Shown here piece by piece: positions 27,827 to 37,755 of a DNA stretch of 64,000 bases. Location of the stretch: contig JADNRY010000082.1 of the NCBI GenBank assembly GCA_015501585.1, positions 166,975 through 230,974 on the forward strand, written 5' to 3'. The notes beneath the pieces are model-generated. The model saw nothing but the letters and a program-made list of their open reading frames with translations. It was not told the DNA's origin and ran no database searches. This DNA comes from Rhodocollybia butyracea. Taxonomy: Eukaryota; Basidiomycota; Agaricomycetes; Agaricales; Omphalotaceae. The translations under genes were made by a program, and so were the position numbers. The number at the start of each line of letters is the position of its first letter. The first letter of the stretch is position 1.

Positions 27827-28817
27827 AAAAATCGATGTTGCTGATTAACACCAAAGCTTGTAGAGATTCATCCAGGCTATGGAAAATGATGTCTTTAAAG
27901 TTCAAAGAAGCTTGATATCATCTTACTAGAGTAATTAATCCCTTCCAAGAGTGCACCAACCAGAATGAGTCCCAACTTTCAATATTTGAATAGCAGTTCC
28001 ATACACTGGCAGAGAAAGAAGCCGGTCAGACAGCTTGGTGGGGAAATTTCAAGCGCGTATGAAGTGCTCCAGGTACCAAAATGCATATTGTACCACCCCT
28101 GTCAGAGCATGTGCAGTTGACCAGTCAGCTGGTGTACCGTGACAAGGAGAGCTGAGGCTTACAACTTGAAACTCACTGTAGTACCACCGTTTCGGAATGT
28201 GTGTATCAATTGAGAAAAAGTGGCCGCCTCATAAACGAAAGGCACAAGGATTGTTGTGACCTAGTACCTTAGGCTATGACGAATTGGGACTTGTTTCCTA
28301 ATCAAGTTAACTGATCATGATATTTACCAACCTGGTTCAGAGAGGGGCCACTAACGATTCTCTCACTGAACCAGAAAACATCTGCTATAAACCTCATTTA
28401 AGTAATTGCTCTTCAGAAGGATAGTGAGCACTGAATTGAAATACAATTGAAAATTGATTGAAAATGAACAACTTCACCAAGCTTCGGTGCGAATAAGCCT
28501 TCAGCTTTGCCCACACTTCTGATGGATTTACGGCTGACTTGCTTTCCATGGTCCTCGATGCATCATTTCTGGTTAGCTGGCCTCGGAGGGATAACCTCGA
28601 GAGTCGATGAAGTTCAAGCTCAAGAAGTGCTCCAAACTTTGGGCTGAGTTTTGTTCCGCTTTCGGGATTGCTGAGAAATTAGGTCACTACTTACTGTTGA
28701 AGCGTTAACAAGTAGGACAAGTAAAAATCGTCCTACTACCTGAATTTTTCGCGAGTTCTGCGCGTGTAAGGCGCAGCGTGGGCCCCGGCTGTTCCTCATT
28801 AAAATAGGGACCACCTG
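27827..28817. other. intergenic DNA up to the transposon insertion
   Basis: No gene recognised. The first part is promoter DNA of P450 copy 5. The last 80-90 bases before 28818 (ACCTGAATTTTTCGCGAG) weakly resemble 24706-24735, i.e. the DNA that precedes the shared repeat in the paralogous flank. Confidence 0.4.
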
Positions 28818-28823
28818 GCCGCC
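28818..28823. repeat. target-site duplication, left copy (GCCGCC)
   Basis: GCCGCC directly precedes the TATGACG terminus. The same six bases directly follow the right terminus at 37708-37713. Confidence 0.8.
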
Positions 28824-29040
28824 TATGACGTTCAAAAGTGGGAATAAATCAACTTTGCTCCGCGCGCATTGAATTTGCTCCGCGCATTGAACTTGCTCCG
28901 CACATTGAATTTGCTCCGCGCACTGAACTTGCTCCGCATGCAAGCTTATTGTTCTGCGCGCAAATTCATGTAAACCATTGCTCCGCGCATGAAGTCAAGC
29001 CAATGCTCCGTGCACCGTTCCAGTTCAAACTTTTCATGTA
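28824..29040. repeat. left terminal inverted repeat (217 bp) with 18-bp subterminal array
   Basis: It is the reverse complement, with substitutions, of 37444-37707. From 28855 to 28940 it holds about five copies of an 18-bp unit containing TTGCTCCGCGCAnTGAA, a likely binding array for the transposition protein. Confidence 0.85.
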
Positions 29041-29161
29041 TATCTTCTAAGCAGAAAAACTATTAGATGAAACGTAGAAATAGATGTAGGAAATGAAATT
29101 CAACAATTGATTCAAGACAAACGATGGGCAGACAGAGGCAGACAGACATGATTAAGACAGC

Positions 29162-29216
29162 AAGGTACGAGATAACGACTGTGAGTGTAGTAAGGTACGA
29201 GATAACGACTGTGAGT
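29162..29216. repeat. two direct copies of a 25-bp sequence, period 30
   Basis: AAGGTACGAGATAACGACTG plus GTGAGT occurs twice without mismatch, between the left end of the element and the BTB gene. Confidence 0.85.
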
Positions 29217-29298
29217 TTATTAAGAAAGAGTAGCGTGGTGTCCTCAGCGGGAGGAGGATGTGATTAATGACAAGAGCTTGAGAAAAATTGTTTAATAT

Positions 29299-30365
29299 CT
29301 ATCCCGAGTAAGGTGACATGCGAACGAGTCCGCCAAGCCTATCCACCAAACGCTGATAAAGGTTTGTTTCGACCTCGAAAAAAGGTGTGATGCTTTCAAT
29401 CGTCGAAATCCTGCATTCATCTGTAACACCGTCAAATCTATGGCTCCGGATATACTGCATCGCCTCCGAAAGTGGAAGAGGGTCTTCTCTTCGGATGAGC
29501 CTAAGACCTACGTTCCTCCATCCAAGGTCCCAGGCTTGAGCGCATCTGGATTTATCGTGATGAATACCGTAGTATGGACAGCCTTTCTCACCAAACCCAA
29601 CATTGGCCATGGGAGGTGGGCATGAAGCACGAGATACGCGCTGGTCCATGAGATAAAGCTGTGCGTTGGCAATGATTGACGCAGATTCGGGCCCAATTTC
29701 ATTCTTCTCCTGCTCTGACAACTGATACATCGGCTTATTGAAAAGCTCTCGAAGCGCCGGTTCAATCCATCGACGGACACCAAGTTCAGTGGCAAGCCCA
29801 AGCATCCGGCTGGCCCTTAACCCAAGAGACTCGATGTGTTGGAGAGCCCACTCTGTAGCAGAATCACATATCCACTTGTCAGCAAATCGATACAGGCTTA
29901 ACAGATCTGGTTCATTCAAGTCCAACGGAATCCAGTGACTTCACGTTGTTGAGTACAGTGTATCAAAGGTAGAGGCAGATTACTCACGGATGTTCAATCC
30001 AGTGAAGGAAAATAGCAACTTCACGAGGGTTTCCTGGCAGAGGAATTGGGCTGATCTCCGTTCCTAAGAGTCCATTCGTTGGGTCAGGAAGCTTAAGCAC
30101 TTCCTTCAACCCCACTGCCAATTCGGTGAGCTTCTCATGATTTATTCTATAGACCTGGTTGTCCTGTGTCTTTGGAACGTTGGCATCAGGACTGTTATCC
30201 AGAATTTCCGAAAATTCAACTTACTTTTACAAGAACAAGCTTCGACCCCTTGCAGAACTCAGGAACAAGGTTCCAGCTAGGGTTTTGAGCTTTCAAAAGA
30301 GAACTAAGCTCTTCGAAACTGCCATAGTGAGCAGGAGGTGCTATGGTTTCAGACGTGGTATCCAT
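29299..30365 (-). CDS. BTB/POZ-domain protein carried inside the transposon
   Basis: Start MDTTSETIAPPAHYGSFEEL. The first exons give a BTB fold: GSKLVLVKV, then VYRINHEKLTELAVGL, LPDPTNGLLGTEISPIPLPG and NPREVAIFLHWIEHP. The last exon has the BTB-associated helices LLSLYRFADKWICDSATEWALQ and GVRRWIEPALRELF, then a Cys/His-containing segment (CPYYGIHHDKSRC). This is the pattern of BTB proteins common in mushrooms; they usually mediate protein-protein contacts. It has at least three exons. It lies entirely within the inverted repeats and shares an 82-bp promoter gap with the integrase, so it travels with the element. No frame break was noticed. Confidence 0.7.
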
Positions 30366-30447
30366 GGTGAGTCGATGACAAGGTAAAATTCCCAAAATAT
30401 GCTGCGCGTTTTTACATAATATTTGTTTCCCCCAAAGTCCAACCTCC
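30366..30447. promoter_or_regulatory. 82-bp divergent promoter between BTB and integrase genes
   Basis: The two start codons are back to back with only 82 bp between them, implying shared control of the two genes within the element. Confidence 0.5.
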
Positions 30448-32530
30448 ATGTTTGGAATGTCCCTACCACCGCTTCCTCGACGCGCTACACCCTGGTCACA
30501 CAACGTTTATGAAGCTAACACTCTTTTGCGAGAGTTTTATCGCCGATCTGTTGCACTCCTTGCCTCAGGGAACTATAACCTGCATCGAGTGAAACTTCAA
30601 CGGGAATCTATACTCAAAGATGCAATTCCGTTGCTTTTGGAAGTTGAAGAAGCAGCCGATGATGAAGAAATACCGCTGGAATGGATCTGTGATGTGTCTG
30701 ATCATTTTGCCGTGTATTGGTAGAGCTAGAGAATGCAAAAGCAACTGCTCATCAAAGGTACGGCCTGCATAACTAAATCTCATTCGGAGCTAAGCATATG
30801 TCTCAGAGAATCAATACACGTTAGGCCTGTGGATGATCCTGTTACGGTTCATCAAAGTGGAATGCGTGGTCGACCCAGAAAACACATTGACCCAGAATTT
30901 CTCAGACATGCCATGAGCCCTACACGTCGAATTAAAGTCACTGAGTTGGCCCGAAAACTCAAGGTAGATTGCAAAACTCTTAAAGCACGACTTCGAGAGA
31001 ATAATGTTGACTATAAATTTTCGGCAATCACTGACGCAGACCTCGATGAGCTGGTGAAGGATTACCGACGGAAGAAAACCGGTGGCATACGGTACCTAAC
31101 AGCGTACCTTCGCTGCAAGGGTTTCAGGCTTCAGAAACGCAGAATTACCGAGTCGCTTGACCGCGTTGACAGGCTGGGACGCTCACTTCGCCGACGACGG
31201 AAGAACAAGGTTATTGTTCACGGTGCATACAAAGTACGTCGACCGCATGAACTCTGGCATATCGATGGACATCACAAGCTGATTCTTTGGGCTTTGTAAT
31301 TCATGGGTGTGTTGATGGGTGTACTCGAACAGTGCGTATCCCCTGCTTTTGATATTTTCTTGTCACCTGAAACCATACATTCATAGATCACTGGGCTCCA
31401 TACCAGTACAAACAACCGCCCATCAACGGTTCTGCGTATGTTTCTTGCAGCAGTCAAGAAATACGGGATGCCCTCTCGTGTTCGAGGAGATCGTGGTTGG
31501 GAAAACAAACTTGTATCTATCCTCCTTATCATCAAGCGGGGACGTAACCGAGCCGGTTTTTTATGGGGATCTTCAACACATAACACTCGCATTGAGCGTC
31601 TGTGGGTCGAGGTTGGTTCTCAGTTTGCTCGGGCATGGCGCGCTTTTTTTTTTCGACTTGAAGACCTGCATGGCCTTGATCGAAAGAGTCCATTCCATCT
31701 TTGGCTTCTACACCTTCTCTTTCTTGGTCCAATTAATGACGACTGTGCAGAGTTTGTTGAGAATTGGAATGCACATCCGATCTCTGGCAAAGGCCACGAT
31801 CGAAGTCCCAATGTACGTTTATGTTACCCCTTTGATTTGCTCACTATCAAGAGCTGAATCACCCTAGGACTTACTTTTTCTTGGTCAACTTGATCATGGA
31901 GCAAACGAGGATTTTCCGGAGCTTGACCCAAGCCTTTTGAGGCGATTTTATGGAGTTCAAGGGAGGCCAGTTCAGCGACAGGCCCATCAGACCGGCGCCG
32001 GTCATCCCATCGAGGAGGAACAGTCAGACACAGATCCTGAAGGCGAAGATGATGGATCTGAGTGGATGGGAATCGATAGTGAACATCCAGCCGATGAAGG
32101 GCATGGGCTCGAAAATGAAGAAGAGGAGTGGCACGGGGTAACAGGCTTAGGAAGCGATGAGCTGGAAGGGCTTGAGATAAACTACGAGGAGCTTGTAAAC
32201 ATGGTAGCGGGAGAGGATGAAAATGAATTTAACCAAGAGGTTATAGACACTCCGAAATATGCTGACCCTTTCCAAGATGATCAAACACATCTTGTGTTTG
32301 AAGCAGCTTTGGCTCGCCTCAATCGGAGCGGTCAGATTCCTTTAGGGTATGGCATACATCCGTCGGAATGGGACAGCGATGGATATCCTTCTGTTGGTAC
32401 CATACGGTCGGGTAGGAAAGGCACCAAGAGGCTTGAAGTTGCATTACCAGACCCCATTTGGAGGCCCCGCTCTGTCCAATGGGTACAAGGGCTGTATTTG
32501 ATGAATCAGTTATTAGATCGACGGTCTTAG
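30448..32530 (+). CDS. rve-type integrase/transposase (IS3EU-like), with frame breaks
   Basis: This is the enzyme expected to cut and join the element's ends. In order: an N-terminal helical region; a GRPRKHIDPEFLRHAM helix-turn-helix-like part; YRRKKTGGIRYLTAYLRCKG, which resembles the IS3 HTH segment; then the DDE core. The three acidic residues are in LWHIDGHHKL, RVRGDRGWEN and NTRIERLW. WRAFFFRLEDLHGLD and WNAHPISGKGHDRSPN follow, and an acidic C-terminal domain. Introns at 31332-31386 and 31813-31867 splice in frame (TRT/ITGL; SPN/DLLFLG). At 31289-31291 one G is missing from the expected LWGFVIHG reading, and a second offset is near 30713 (FAV/LVELEN). The copy is therefore either inactive or carries base-call errors. 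Confidence 0.85.
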
Positions 32531-33410
32531 CAGTAGCGTAGCCATTGAATATATATCTTCTCTAGTACTACTTGGTTTCAGCCTTACTGAGATCGAAACA
32601 GGGATAAAATCTAACCGACCGAGGTTCCTAAACTCACTGATACAGCCTTGGTCTTGTCTATCAAAAGTGCTCTCTCACTTCATCCTGGGTTCAAAGCTGG
32701 AGGGGTCAAGAGTAACGGCCCACGTCCAGAGCTGACTCAAATTAGGAGACACTGACGGTGTCAGTCCTTCTTTGCAAATATTCCATGTACCTATCTTACG
32801 CAGTCAAAACATCTGTTCGTTGGGCTTACAATACCTACCTAACGGCGTAAGTCCTTTGCAGAAATCTCGTGTACCTAACTTACACAGTGAGGGTGCTGCA
32901 CTTTCCTTGGTCTTTCCTGCATATCTTCTTGTATGTCTATTAGAACATCCCTCGAAGCATTCATTTATTGAGCTTACCAGTACGGAAATACAGCAAGAAG
33001 CACCTCAGATGGATCAAGATTGAAGTTTAGAGAAATTGACCTATGCTGACGCTGGCGCTGTGGCTTCAATATGTTTATATTGGCCCCTTCTAAATTTGTC
33101 TGGTGCGATACAATGTACGAAAATAACAAGATATTCTATTATAGATGCCTCGAGGGCATAAAAATCGGCATAAGTATGCAGAAGATCTGCTCAATCGGTT
33201 GAGAATTGAACAAACTCTTGCGACTTTTGTCAGGAAACGCGCAAGAAACACGCCTTATCGAAGCATATTGTCACATCAGGTGATTGTGGGCGCTACAATT
33301 TGTAACGTTTGTCGTTACTCCTTCTTTTCCAGCCGCCATCTTAAGTGTTTGTCGCTACTCCTTCTTTTCCAACCACATCTTAAGCCCAAAGGAACTTTTT
33401 GAAAACGGCC
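32531..33410. other. spacer between integrase and TET/JBP gene
   Basis: It contains a tandem pair of about 39 bp (33307-33345 and 33347-33384, GTTTGTCGTTACTCCTTCTT type). A small ATG frame at 33145-33279 (MPRGHKNRHKYAEDLLNRLR) ends at a possible donor and could be an extra upstream exon of the next gene or a tiny separate gene; I could not connect it. Confidence 0.4.
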
Positions 33411-35211
33411 ATGGGTGAGCTCCTCCTTCTCTCTTTTTGTCTTCTTTTCTTCGTGTTTGGCTGTCCTGGCAGGGAGGGTCCAACTGGGGAGCCAAACTGC
33501 CGGGCGCCTTTGGTTTCTGAGCTTTTTCGCACCTGTTCTCCCCGCCGTTCTTGATTTAATCTGCCGCTTTTTCTTTAGGAACGCGAACTGGTCAATCTTA
33601 CTCTCCGTGGGGCGTCGGCGGAATCAAAGCTCAGGACATGGAGCCCGTACGGTCCTGCGGCCTTTTCACCTCAAGGACCGGCTTTCCTCTCAGCTACACA
33701 CGCAGCAGGATGCCGAACCGTCCGACGACTTTCAGGATTGTCCCGACGTGGATGATGGAGCTGTCCCGGGCCCTAGCTTTTTGGGTGACGCATCGCCGAA
33801 TGAACACCTGTCCAACCTCATTCCTGAACCCTCTTCCACGCTTCAGCCACTTCCTTCCGAGGTTCTTCTTGCCGGCGCTGGTCCACATCGATCAAAGAGC
33901 AAGAAGAACGTGCGAAAGGATGCTAAGAATCGCGAGAAACGCAGACAGGCCCGCGCAGAGCAGGACAGACTTGGAAAAGGTGAACGCCAGATCTTGGCGC
34001 ATGCTCAGGAGCGTCTTGCAGCCTCATTGTCTGTCCAAAGCACAAGGTTTGCATTGGCCGAGGATGCCGCTGTTGGCTCGGGCGGCTACACAGGCAAGAG
34101 GCAGGAGTTTGACCGTGTGCATTGCTCTGTGGCTGAGCTGGAGGCACAGGGTCTTGTAGAGTTTGTCGGGGAACCTGGGTGTGTGTTTATCTGCTTCCTT
34201 TGCTTTCTTTGCTTATCTCGATGGCCAGACAAATGTATGTCCTTCTCGATTCCGATGGTGTGGTAACAGGGGTTGTGGGCGGCCATCCTCAGGGCACAAA
34301 ATGGCTTGAAACAGTAAACCAGCAAGCCACTGAAGCTATTCGCCAAGCTCGATTGGATCTGACGTTCACTGAAAAGCAAACAAACCATCGCCGTTCCGAT
34401 TGCCCTGCCGTTGCCTTTGGAGTCAGCTTCGGTGGAGGTTCGAAGGTGAGCCTTCCGCCCTTTGATCGTTCTTAGTATTTTTTTGACTAAGCTTCCCTTT
34501 AGATGCCTGGCAACCTACGGCAAGCTAGCCCTGCGGCCTTCAACATCATGTTTTCCCTCCTTAGCCTCACCTGTTTCGCACGAATATCAGGCTACGCTAA
34601 CAGTGAGCTTCCTTTACATAGCTGGCCTTCTACCTGCTCTGACATGGGTTCTAGGTCTTTTTATGGCGTATTCATACGGGTGCTACACCTACTGCAGGGC
34701 TACGTTGAACAAGCTCTTCGACTGGAATTTGAACCTCCGCCGTCTCTTCAAAAACAATGCATGGGCTGCATGTACCGTTAACTTCGGGCCCTTTTCCGTT
34801 ACCTATCCCCATGTTGACTCTGCCAACCTATGCTTTGGTTGGTGCTCAATCACTGCCTTAGGGAGTTTTGACCATACGCTTGGGGGGCACCTCATCCTGT
34901 GGGACCTTGGCCTCTTTATACGCTTCCCTCCCGGTTCCACTATCCTCATCCCTTCAGCCCTTCTTGTGCACTCTAACGTTCCTATCTCCCCTGGCGAAGA
35001 ACGGTATTCTTTTGTCCAATACTCATCGGCTGGGCTGTTCCGCTGGGTTGAGAATGGGTTTCAAAGCGACGTCGACTTGGACCGTCGGGCCACTTCCTCC
35101 CAGCGCTCAAAGCGTAAAGCTGAACGACAGGGCAGGTGGGAGAGCGGCCTTTCTATGTTTTCTAAATGGGTGGACATCCAGACAGGTAATTGGAAGGGTA
35201 GCTACGTGTAG
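33411..35211 (+). CDS. TET/JBP-family 2-oxoglutarate Fe(II) dioxygenase
   Basis: TET/JBP enzymes oxidise methyl groups of bases in DNA (5-methylcytosine or thymine). The N-terminal 200 or so residues are basic and low-complexity (KKNVRKDAKNREKRRQARAE). The catalytic core reads NFGPFSVTYPHVDSANL (HxD iron ligands), FGWCSITALGSFD, GGHLILWDLGLFIRFPPGST, ALLVHSNVPI (distal His) and ERYSFVQYSSAGLFRW (Arg for 2-oxoglutarate), so all expected residues are present. Introns at 34179-34228, 34456-34502 and 34614-34666 (approximate for the last two) splice in frame: GEPG/QMYV, GGSK/MPGN, GYAN/SLFMAY. The start (ATG at 33411, followed by an intron) is uncertain. The gene sits inside the element, downstream of the integrase. 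Confidence 0.85.
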
Positions 35212-35369
35212 TATCATTTACCTTACTTTTGTATTTGAAACGGTGTTAAGCTACAAACGAAAAATGAAATTCTACAATGTTCTAGATCAGTGACCGGGCA
35301 TGTGAGTCGAGTTTAATTTAGCACTCCCACGCTTAACTGTTTTTACTACCTTCTTTCATTTCTCTCAAC

Positions 35370-37156
35370 ATGGGCACAGGTGGCCCTTTGAAAACTCACA
35401 AAAAGCAACTTCTGGTTCGAAAATCCGGTCCATCCCCTCGAGCAAACATGCCAAAGCACAGGAGGAGCAACTCTCGTGGCCTTGGGCCGCTTGCTCCTCA
35501 ATCCTCGTCTGATGCTGAAGACAGTCTGGATGGTTCTGCCTCACACTCTCTAGAAAAACTTCGAAAGTTTACTGATGATGGGGATGCAGACGCCCTCATC
35601 GACAGCTTGACCTCTAATAAGTTACTTCAAAGCCCAGATACAGCCTCCGATAAAGCCTCCGATAGTGAGGATGAGTATGCTCAGGCAGAGGCAGAGACTT
35701 CACGTGGGCTTCGTCCTAAGCAAAAACCATCAAAGCGTGTGGGCGGAAAACGCGTATCTGAGCCTTTGAGGAGTCAAGCTAAGGGAAAAGCTGTAGGTCT
35801 TTTCTCGTAACTTTGTTCACCCATTGACTTGTTCTTCTCCAGAAAGCTGTCAATACTACGTTTGTCGTAGAATCAATACTCTGTTTGCCTGAGGGTATTG
35901 TTGAAGTCAAAGCTGTACGTTTTTTCTCTTGAAAACTGGCAAATCATCCCCTTACCTTCTGTTTGCATTCAGAAAAGCGAAAAAGAAGCCGCCGCCGCCT
36001 GCGCTGTCAAGCTGGGAGGTCGTTACTTTGCTCTGCCGACGAAAGTCAGTGGTACCAACGTTCTGAGCCTGGCCTCCCTACAAAACTATCGAAAACAAGG
36101 CCTTGCAGCCATCAACTCTTCCACTGGTTTTGAGTTCGACGCTGCATGGGACAAGGAGACGGTAGCAGAGAAGCTCTCAGAGGAGGTCCCAGTTTTTCGT
36201 CTGTTGATTGAGGAAGAGGAAAATGATTTTAAAAGACGACCTCCTATTCTTTTCTGCACCCGCCAAGAACGACGTATCCAGCTGACGGGGCTAGCAATTC
36301 CAAACGGTGACACTGCGAAACAGTATAGTCGAAAAGCTCGTTCTGGGTGGCAAGGGTCTGTGATGATCTTCAGTAAGCAAACCATTTCTGAAACCCCGTT
36401 ACTTCCTGCCATTAACCTCGATACAGCAACGCGTACAGCGATCAATGCTGTTCATCAAAAGGCACTCGCCAAAAGCTTTTTAGAGAAATATGGGGATGAG
36501 ATTCTGGAAGTAGATGACTGGGATGACATCATGACGCAACACCCACGTCTTGACCATCTTGACCAGGGCGGCACTTCAGGAAAAAAGACCCGCGTGTTGC
36601 GAAGCAGTGTCCAGGCCAATCGAAAGCGTATTCGTGAGGAGGAGATAAGCTCTAGTTCTGAAGATGAGGTTGTATCGCATCTGACAACCTCGCCTACTTC
36701 CTCACCTGTTCCTCCTCCTCGAAAGAAAAGAAAGATGAACCTGGGTGGTGAGTTTGTATAATGCAGTCATTTTGTGCCTCATGGTTTTCTTTGTAGAAAT
36801 CGATTTAACCGACGATGATACATTAGGTCAGCTCAAGCCTCCTCATACTTCCTTGATACTCACCGTTTCCTTTGTACCTAGTGCCCGCCGATGCTCCCAG
36901 GCCTTCAGAAAGTGGTCCCAGTGACACGACTAATGAAGCCACTGACCGTCCGGTGACCCCAGAAACGATCCCGTCACCAAAACCTGATCACTGGAGCCCA
37001 GACTGGAAGGTATATATGCACCAATATTCCACCTGGGGGACGAAGCCTCTCAACATTAGTTTTTGAATGCTTTGGCAATACGTTATTTTCCATTCATTGA
37101 TATTCTTTTTGTTTCGATTTACTCTCAACTTTCAACAGTTTAACTTCATGCAGTAG
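35370..37156 (+). CDS. unrecognised nuclear-type protein, fourth gene of the transposon
   Basis: Start MGTGGPLKTHKKQLLVRK. The N-terminal part is basic and Ser-rich with acidic SDSEDEYAQ stretches. A globular centre runs from ACAVKLGGRYFALPTKV through FEFDAAWDKETVAEKL and PPILFCTRQERRIQLTGLAI to WQGSVMIFSKQ. It is followed by LEVDDWDDIM, a Ser/Glu tract (EEEISSSSEDE), the nuclear-localisation-type PPPRKKRKM, and EIDLTDDDTL, a classic SUMO-interacting motif. The last exon ends WKFNFMQ at 37156. At least five introns keep frame (phases checked by eye at NLGG/EIDLT, DTL/VPAD and DWK/FNFMQ). I do not know the family. Its place suggests a role in transposition or in chromatin targeting, which is inference. 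Confidence 0.65.
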
Positions 37157-37443
37157 TCCTGAAGTTCTTGCTCTATTGCTGAACATCCAACTGTTCAGCT
37201 TTAGCACCTGCTTTTGTTTACGATACAAAGCTACACTACCCACACTCTCCTTTACTCCTTCATACCAAGCTTCAACGTTCGTTTTTTAATATAATGGACA
37301 CTACGCAACCCTACTTTACTTAACAGTTTTAATCCTGTCTGCCCATCCTTTTATTCTTCATCGTTTCGTTACCCCATCGTTTCGTTACCCTCCGTTTATC
37401 GAATGCTTACTTCTCTCTGGTTTAATGAATAGTTTTTCAGCTG

Positions 37444-37707
37444 TACATGAAAACCTTAGAACTGGAGTGGTGCATGGAGCATTGACGTGACTTTGTGTGC
37501 AGAGTAATGGTTTACTTCGTGCGCGGCGCAATGGTTAATTTTGTGCGCGGAGCAATGGTTTGCATGAATTTGCACGCGGAGCAAGTTCAGTGCGCGGAGC
37601 AAATTCAGTGCGCGGAGCAAGTTCAGTGTGCGGAGCAAGTTCAATGCGCGGAGCAAATTCAATGCGCGCGGAGCAAAGTTGATTTATTCCCACTTTTGAA
37701 CGTCATA
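37444..37707. repeat. right terminal inverted repeat (264 bp) with 18-bp subterminal array
   Basis: Inverted counterpart of 28824-29040. The outer array (37575-37677) has units such as TTCAGTGCGCGGAGCAAA. The inner part carries additional GCAATGGTTTA-type units, making it about 47 bp longer than the left repeat. Confidence 0.85.
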
Positions 37708-37713
37708 GCCGCC
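37708..37713. repeat. target-site duplication, right copy (GCCGCC)
   Basis: GCCGCC follows the CGTCATA terminus and equals 28818-28823. Confidence 0.8.
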
Positions 37714-37755
37714 CCTTCCTTCCTTCCAAGCCGCCAATTTCAATCCGAACGACTC

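Follow-up and report, generated by a model that had tools for sequence, protein, structure and literature searches.

A predicted TET/JBP dioxygenase within a mobile IS3EU-like transposon of the mushroom Rhodocollybia butyracea

The 64,000-nucleotide stretch of DNA analysed here (the window; C1183:166975-230974 in the 95.6-Mb assembly of Rhodocollybia butyracea) harbours an IS3EU-like transposon of four genes, which spans window positions 28824-37707 (8,884 bp) and includes a gene for a predicted TET/JBP dioxygenase. We consider it likely that this enzyme oxidises 5-methylcytosine (5mC) and that the element thereby escapes silencing. A predicted TET/JBP-fold dioxygenase is in this way placed within an IS3EU-like mushroom element of demonstrated mobility, and two insertions have exact empty sites in the same assembly. 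If the occupied and empty site copies are the haplotypes of a dikaryon, methylation and oxidised methylcytosine could be compared between both alleles in the same cells, which would make the idea of anti-silencing directly testable.

The element starts with TATGACG and closes with CGTCATA. Its inverted ends measure about 217 bp (left) and 264 bp (right) and are 89% identical over bases 1-192 of the 217-bp query, while the arms 28817-28937 and 37594-37714 are complementary at 96% (121 nucleotides). These ends and the flanking GCCGCC lie where a preliminary description of this DNA, made from the sequence, had placed them (Table 1). IS3EU elements are defined by TA..TA ends and usually show 6-bp target-site duplications (PMC10045372). 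Such termini were found in the window element and in its sister copies (TATGCTG..CAGCATA), and four units, namely those in the window, C716, C628 and C312, feature both ends together with a matching 6-bp duplication, in agreement with the two empty sites. By its termini and duplications, the element is IS3EU-like; its integrase core belongs to Pfam rva_4 and has a D-E spacing of 34 residues.

Evidence for mobility comes from the flanks. The left 1-kb flank of the window element matches C1 at 1543999-1544803 and the right 1-kb flank at 1543000-1544004, both on the minus strand, and these matches overlap by exactly 6 bases. The joined flanks are 99.1% identical to C1 (1543000-1544803, minus strand) over 1,804 columns, with a single GCCGCC at this place. 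The window element consequently occupies one of two near-identical site copies, and the other lacks precisely the element and one duplication; an allele of this kind had been proposed as a check in the preliminary description. Because of the flank identity, C1 may represent the other haplotype of a dikaryon. A second exact empty site was found on C1248 for the C716 unit (100% identity over 172 bp on the left and 611 bp on the right, with one CCCACT). Mobility of this first unit family is proven, a proof which does not extend to the second integrase-linked TET lineage described below. The exact empty site on C1 also excludes a chance inverted repeat. Likewise, an identity as Kyakuja/Zisupton (KDZ) element was rejected, since none of the 144 genome-wide matches to the KDZ transposase (PF18758) lies on C1183. 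Further observations concern the C716 unit: the unit in C545 is 99.94% identical to it across 3,564 bp, with differing flanks at the fourth-gene end and its other end cut by the contig start, and C683:276550-277178 (L116) is related to the C716 insertion site at 82% identity.

All four genes named in the preliminary description are present, two of them with matching annotated proteins (Table 1). Its labels fared differently: integrase and, as a predicted fold, TET/JBP were confirmed; the integrase frame, however, contains two breaks in the assembly (near 30711 and 31289), and the BTB label is backed by a predicted fold, the protein having no match in Pfam. An integrase-type rather than a KDZ carrier of the dioxygenase and two more genes is accordingly supported, with the reservation of this broken frame. 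For the fourth protein, the Pfam scan returned no known family. Exons at the 5' side of the TET gene were looked for and could not be placed, which makes its 5' limit in Table 1 provisional. At 33146-33384, just 5' of this gene, a 40-bp tandem repeat comes after a short open frame (MPRGHKNRH..), which could represent an additional small gene or else belong to the TET gene as a 5' exon.

Table 1. Features of the window element (window coordinates) and coordinates of three sister units (contig coordinates).
Feature	Position	Strand	Basis or remark
Left 6-bp target-site duplication GCCGCC	28818..28823	.	Sequence; one copy in the empty site on C1
Left inverted end, starts TATGACG; contains 18-bp tandem array 28863-28937	28824..29040	+	Sequence comparison of ends
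BTB/SKP1-like gene, spliced; annotated protein P0125, 320 amino acids	29299..30365	-	99% protein match; predicted fold, residues 42-148
Integrase/transposase gene	30448..32530	+	Pfam rva_4; spacing of 34 residues from second D to E
TET/JBP-fold dioxygenase gene; exons ..34178, 34229-34445, 34503-34602, 34655-35211	33652..35211	+	Predicted fold, homologues
Fourth gene; P0121, 494 amino acids; acidic and basic stretches	35370..37066	+	Annotated protein match, 100%
Right inverted end, closes with CGTCATA; contains 24-bp tandem array 37490-37561 and 18-bp tandem array 37575-37668	37444..37707	-	
Right 6-bp target-site duplication GCCGCC	37708..37713	.	Sequence; empty site on C1
C716 unit	513172-521939		Duplication CCCACT
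C628 unit	307374-316180		Duplication CCCGAG
C312 unit	73240-87950		Duplication CCAGCC

The genome was searched with exons of the TET, integrase, fourth and BTB-like genes, with the best 150 of 184 TET candidates scored, and the counts given here are consequently lower bounds. At least eight loci match all four genes with order and orientation kept (C1183, C977, C312, C545, C716, C628, C1083 and C444). Together with the 6-bp duplications of the sister units, this bears out the check for further copies put forward in the preliminary description. Partial gene sets were found in C1208, C954, C703, C554, C1366 and C454, several of them close to contig ends. A TATGCTG-type terminus occurs in 11 of the 17 fetched end regions and is absent from the other six, including both C1083 ends. 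Moreover, the same outer ends enclose short, gene-less elements of 669-809 bp, which look like internally deleted derivatives that moved in trans; of seven such places inspected, five show 6-bp duplications that match. In the preliminary description, ends bounding anything other than the four-gene content had been named as speaking against the unit. The short elements weaken the interpretation given there; we read them as deletion derivatives.

The two frame breaks in the integrase could mean that the window copy is a dead remnant, intact at its ends and immobile both by itself and in trans. We regard this as very improbable. The window copy is lacking at a site whose flanks are 99.1% identical, which points to recent insertion; its TET, fourth and BTB-like frames are open, stop-free matched integrase exons occur in sister copies, and the gene-less elements make movement in trans plausible.

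Some loci add details on relatives of these units. C628 (L052) and C444 (L057) are 99% alike over about 1.2 kb of BTB-side end and flank and differ in the fourth-gene end and the interior, which could reflect a recombinant allele or a misassembly. One short element, with identical flanks in two contigs, measures 806 bp in C138:155-960 (L035), whereas its ends lie about 24.5 kb apart in C401:50133-74615 (L070/L004); something large must consequently be nested inside the latter. Integrase relatives of 61-63% identity in C866, C115 and C712 (L027, L029, L030) have no matches to the BTB-like and fourth genes and no TET nearby, except for a distant 35% match 7 kb off in C712, and possibly belong to elements without this cargo; inverted ends were sought around the C866 and C115 integrases and not found.

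The TET/JBP fold was predicted for P0001, a homologue that shares 80% identity with the window protein across 62% of the query, and the best structural matches of the model are 5mC oxidases. The window protein contains HVD as iron-binding HxD motif, and the downstream H is invariant among 45 aligned homologues. Pfam Tet_JBP was matched by five of these 45 at E <= 0.01, and a PF12851 scan of the genome gave four hits, all below the cut-off. Selection was assessed by the ratio of nonsynonymous to synonymous substitution rates (dN/dS) in 28 pairs of the TET catalytic exon among eight copies and in ten pairs of the integrase exon. In the TET exon, dN/dS was 0.04-0.14 in 19 of 28 pairs, all with dS > 1, and dS was saturated in six, so that the exact ratios are rough; two close pairs gave 0.37 at dS 0.033 and one pair was identical. 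The integrase exon gave 0.04-0.08 in nine of ten pairs and 0.18 in the remaining one. The TET exon is thus under purifying selection much like the integrase exon, which speaks for a benefit of the enzyme to the transposon.

Across the genome, at least 134 TET-like loci were obtained by merging the best 150 of 184 TET matches. Within 9 kb, 12 of them have an integrase match, 27 a KDZ match, one has both and 94 have neither; the exon-by-exon search of listed matches misses some partners, e.g., the C436 integrase, which is absent from this tally and was found separately. Such abundance, in which any single copy may be redundant, and the movement of gene-less elements with related ends would also suit a dioxygenase that plays no role in the silencing of its own element, i.e., a passenger or host-serving gene merely spread by the transposon. 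The purifying selection across divergent copies and the four-gene order kept at eight loci speak against such mere cargo, and we deem it unlikely.

A tree of 51 of the 52 extracted TET domains (C1061 was left out for short coverage) places the TETs of the units in one clade (100/99), which also holds those of C954, C1206 and C524, the latter two without an integrase match. The neighbouring clade comprises 13 TETs without listed partner. These are located in C904, C25, C533, C1094:87235, C561, C642, C158, C805, C663, C1008, C992, C437 and C1272 (L019, L020, L091-L100 and L110), and none of them has an integrase or KDZ match less than 9 kb away; in C25, the 9 kb surrounding the TET hold only short open reading frames plus one of 551 codons. 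In a second clade (100/99), the TETs of C436 (L112), C557 (L111) and C1316:203909-205597 adjoin a different rva_4 integrase, and this clade is nested in a 100/100 group that also includes three KDZ-linked TETs. The TET of C436 is the immediate upstream neighbour of the integrase and has the same orientation, and on the integrase side the terminus reads TATGGGC; for the C557 element, a target duplication was looked for and not found. With integrase partners in both clades, TETs have come to be linked to integrase-type elements in at least two separate clades of this genome.

The motif GWCSITALG of the window family reads GWCTDTAAG in the INT2/KDZ group, so that TET clades of this genome are not alike in the pocket next to HxD. 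This difference, together with the described activity of CcTET on N6-methyladenine (6mA) besides 5mC (PMC12730594, citing other work), would fit a genuine enzyme with a target other than silencing 5mC, be it another base such as 6mA or a mark on the ends or target for transposition. Nothing links the enzyme to a transposition step, however, and its predicted fold is closest to 5mC oxidases; we consider such a target improbable.

Several observations weigh against a mobile unit whose dioxygenase oxidises 5mC and lets it escape silencing. The window TET matches neither Pfam Tet_JBP nor, by phmmer or with the 45-sequence profile, the sequence of any solved TET; PDB sequence searches with the window TET, this profile, two KDZ-linked TETs and one INT2 TET likewise returned no TET relative. 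The C1083 copy reads HVN in place of HxD, and no recognisable end was found in either of its fetched flanks, while C444 has two ends with unmatched duplications. To these come the broken integrase frame of the window copy and the selection estimates, with dS high or saturated in most pairs and the higher ratio of the two close ones. Furthermore, the CpG density of the ends varies strongly between copies: the observed/expected ratio is 1.35 in the window and 1.34 in C716, and a C312 end has zero CpG in 217 bp, on which grounds we rejected the idea that the oxygenase has a conserved target in CpG-rich ends. The same variation weakens the proposal of the preliminary description that the unit would rewrite DNA methylation at its landing sites and so escape silencing.

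We nevertheless favour the transposon-borne, 5mC-oxidising dioxygenase, for which the following course of events could be envisaged. The DDE integrase, which for the window copy probably comes from a sister copy acting in trans, would bind the tandem arrays in the ends and then cut and paste the unit. The dioxygenase would act on methylated copies of the element and relieve methylation-based silencing, and the BTB-like (by predicted BTB/SKP1-like fold) and fourth proteins could serve as nuclear helpers, e.g., as cullin-ligase adaptor and recruiter. A more elaborate version, which we put forward as doubtful, is a four-gene unit with its own chromatin-evasion kit: the TET would rewrite the methylation of the element, the BTB-like protein would pass a silencing factor of the host on to a cullin ligase, and both would be brought to the inverted ends by the fourth protein. 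New insertions would thereby remain active amid the more than 100 other TET-like loci of this genome.

The premise of the preliminary description that IS3EU elements usually carry the integrase alone is out of date, as TET-bearing IS3EU have been described in seven Pucciniales species, with 6-bp duplications and TAYGG..CCRTA termini, and in Tuber indicum (Kojima, 2025; PMC12730594). The window element resembles them in its IS3EU type, its TA..TA ends and its TET/JBP gene, and the rust elements also in the 6-bp duplications. In contrast to the rust termini, it shows TATGACG (TATGCTG in sister copies), and the second integrase-linked lineage of R. butyracea has TATGGGC at one end. In all TET-bearing IS3EU of that study, the TET gene has the transposase gene on one side and an alpha-kinase gene on the other, whereas here it lies between the integrase and an unrelated fourth gene, and Pfam scans of the open reading frame pieces and spliced proteins of the element gave no alpha-kinase match. 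The window element additionally features a BTB-like gene divergent from the integrase, its host is a mushroom, and its HVD (HxD) differs from the HxE of PE-type TETs (PMC12730594). Structurally, the predicted fold of window-type TETs is that of CcTET from Coprinopsis cinerea (PDB 8jkk, 7w5p), to which AG-type TETs are close in sequence (PMC12730594), at 14-15% identity over the structural alignment, with no sequence match at E <= 10 by phmmer or the 45-sequence profile.

With the TET-bearing Kyakuja and Zisupton of Agaricomycetes (PMC12730594), the system described here shares mushroom hosts and related TETs, which stand beside KDZ at 27 loci of this genome. Unlike these, the window element has an integrase-type transposase, inverted ends and 6-bp duplications, whereas Kyakuja features 7-bp duplications and lacks inverted repeats (PMC12730594). 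Among the further papers listed in our literature searches, none described a TET-bearing IS3EU element from a mushroom, and the main text of Kojima (2025) does not mention Rhodocollybia. In the available portions of that paper, the TET carriers given for Agaricomycotina are Kyakuja, Zisupton, EnSpm, Plavaka and Helitron2, with IS3EU not listed, and AG-type TETs are stated to show no transfer between superfamilies. In contrast, integrase-linked TETs occur in at least two TET clades of this one mushroom genome, and one of these clades is interspersed with TETs linked to KDZ.
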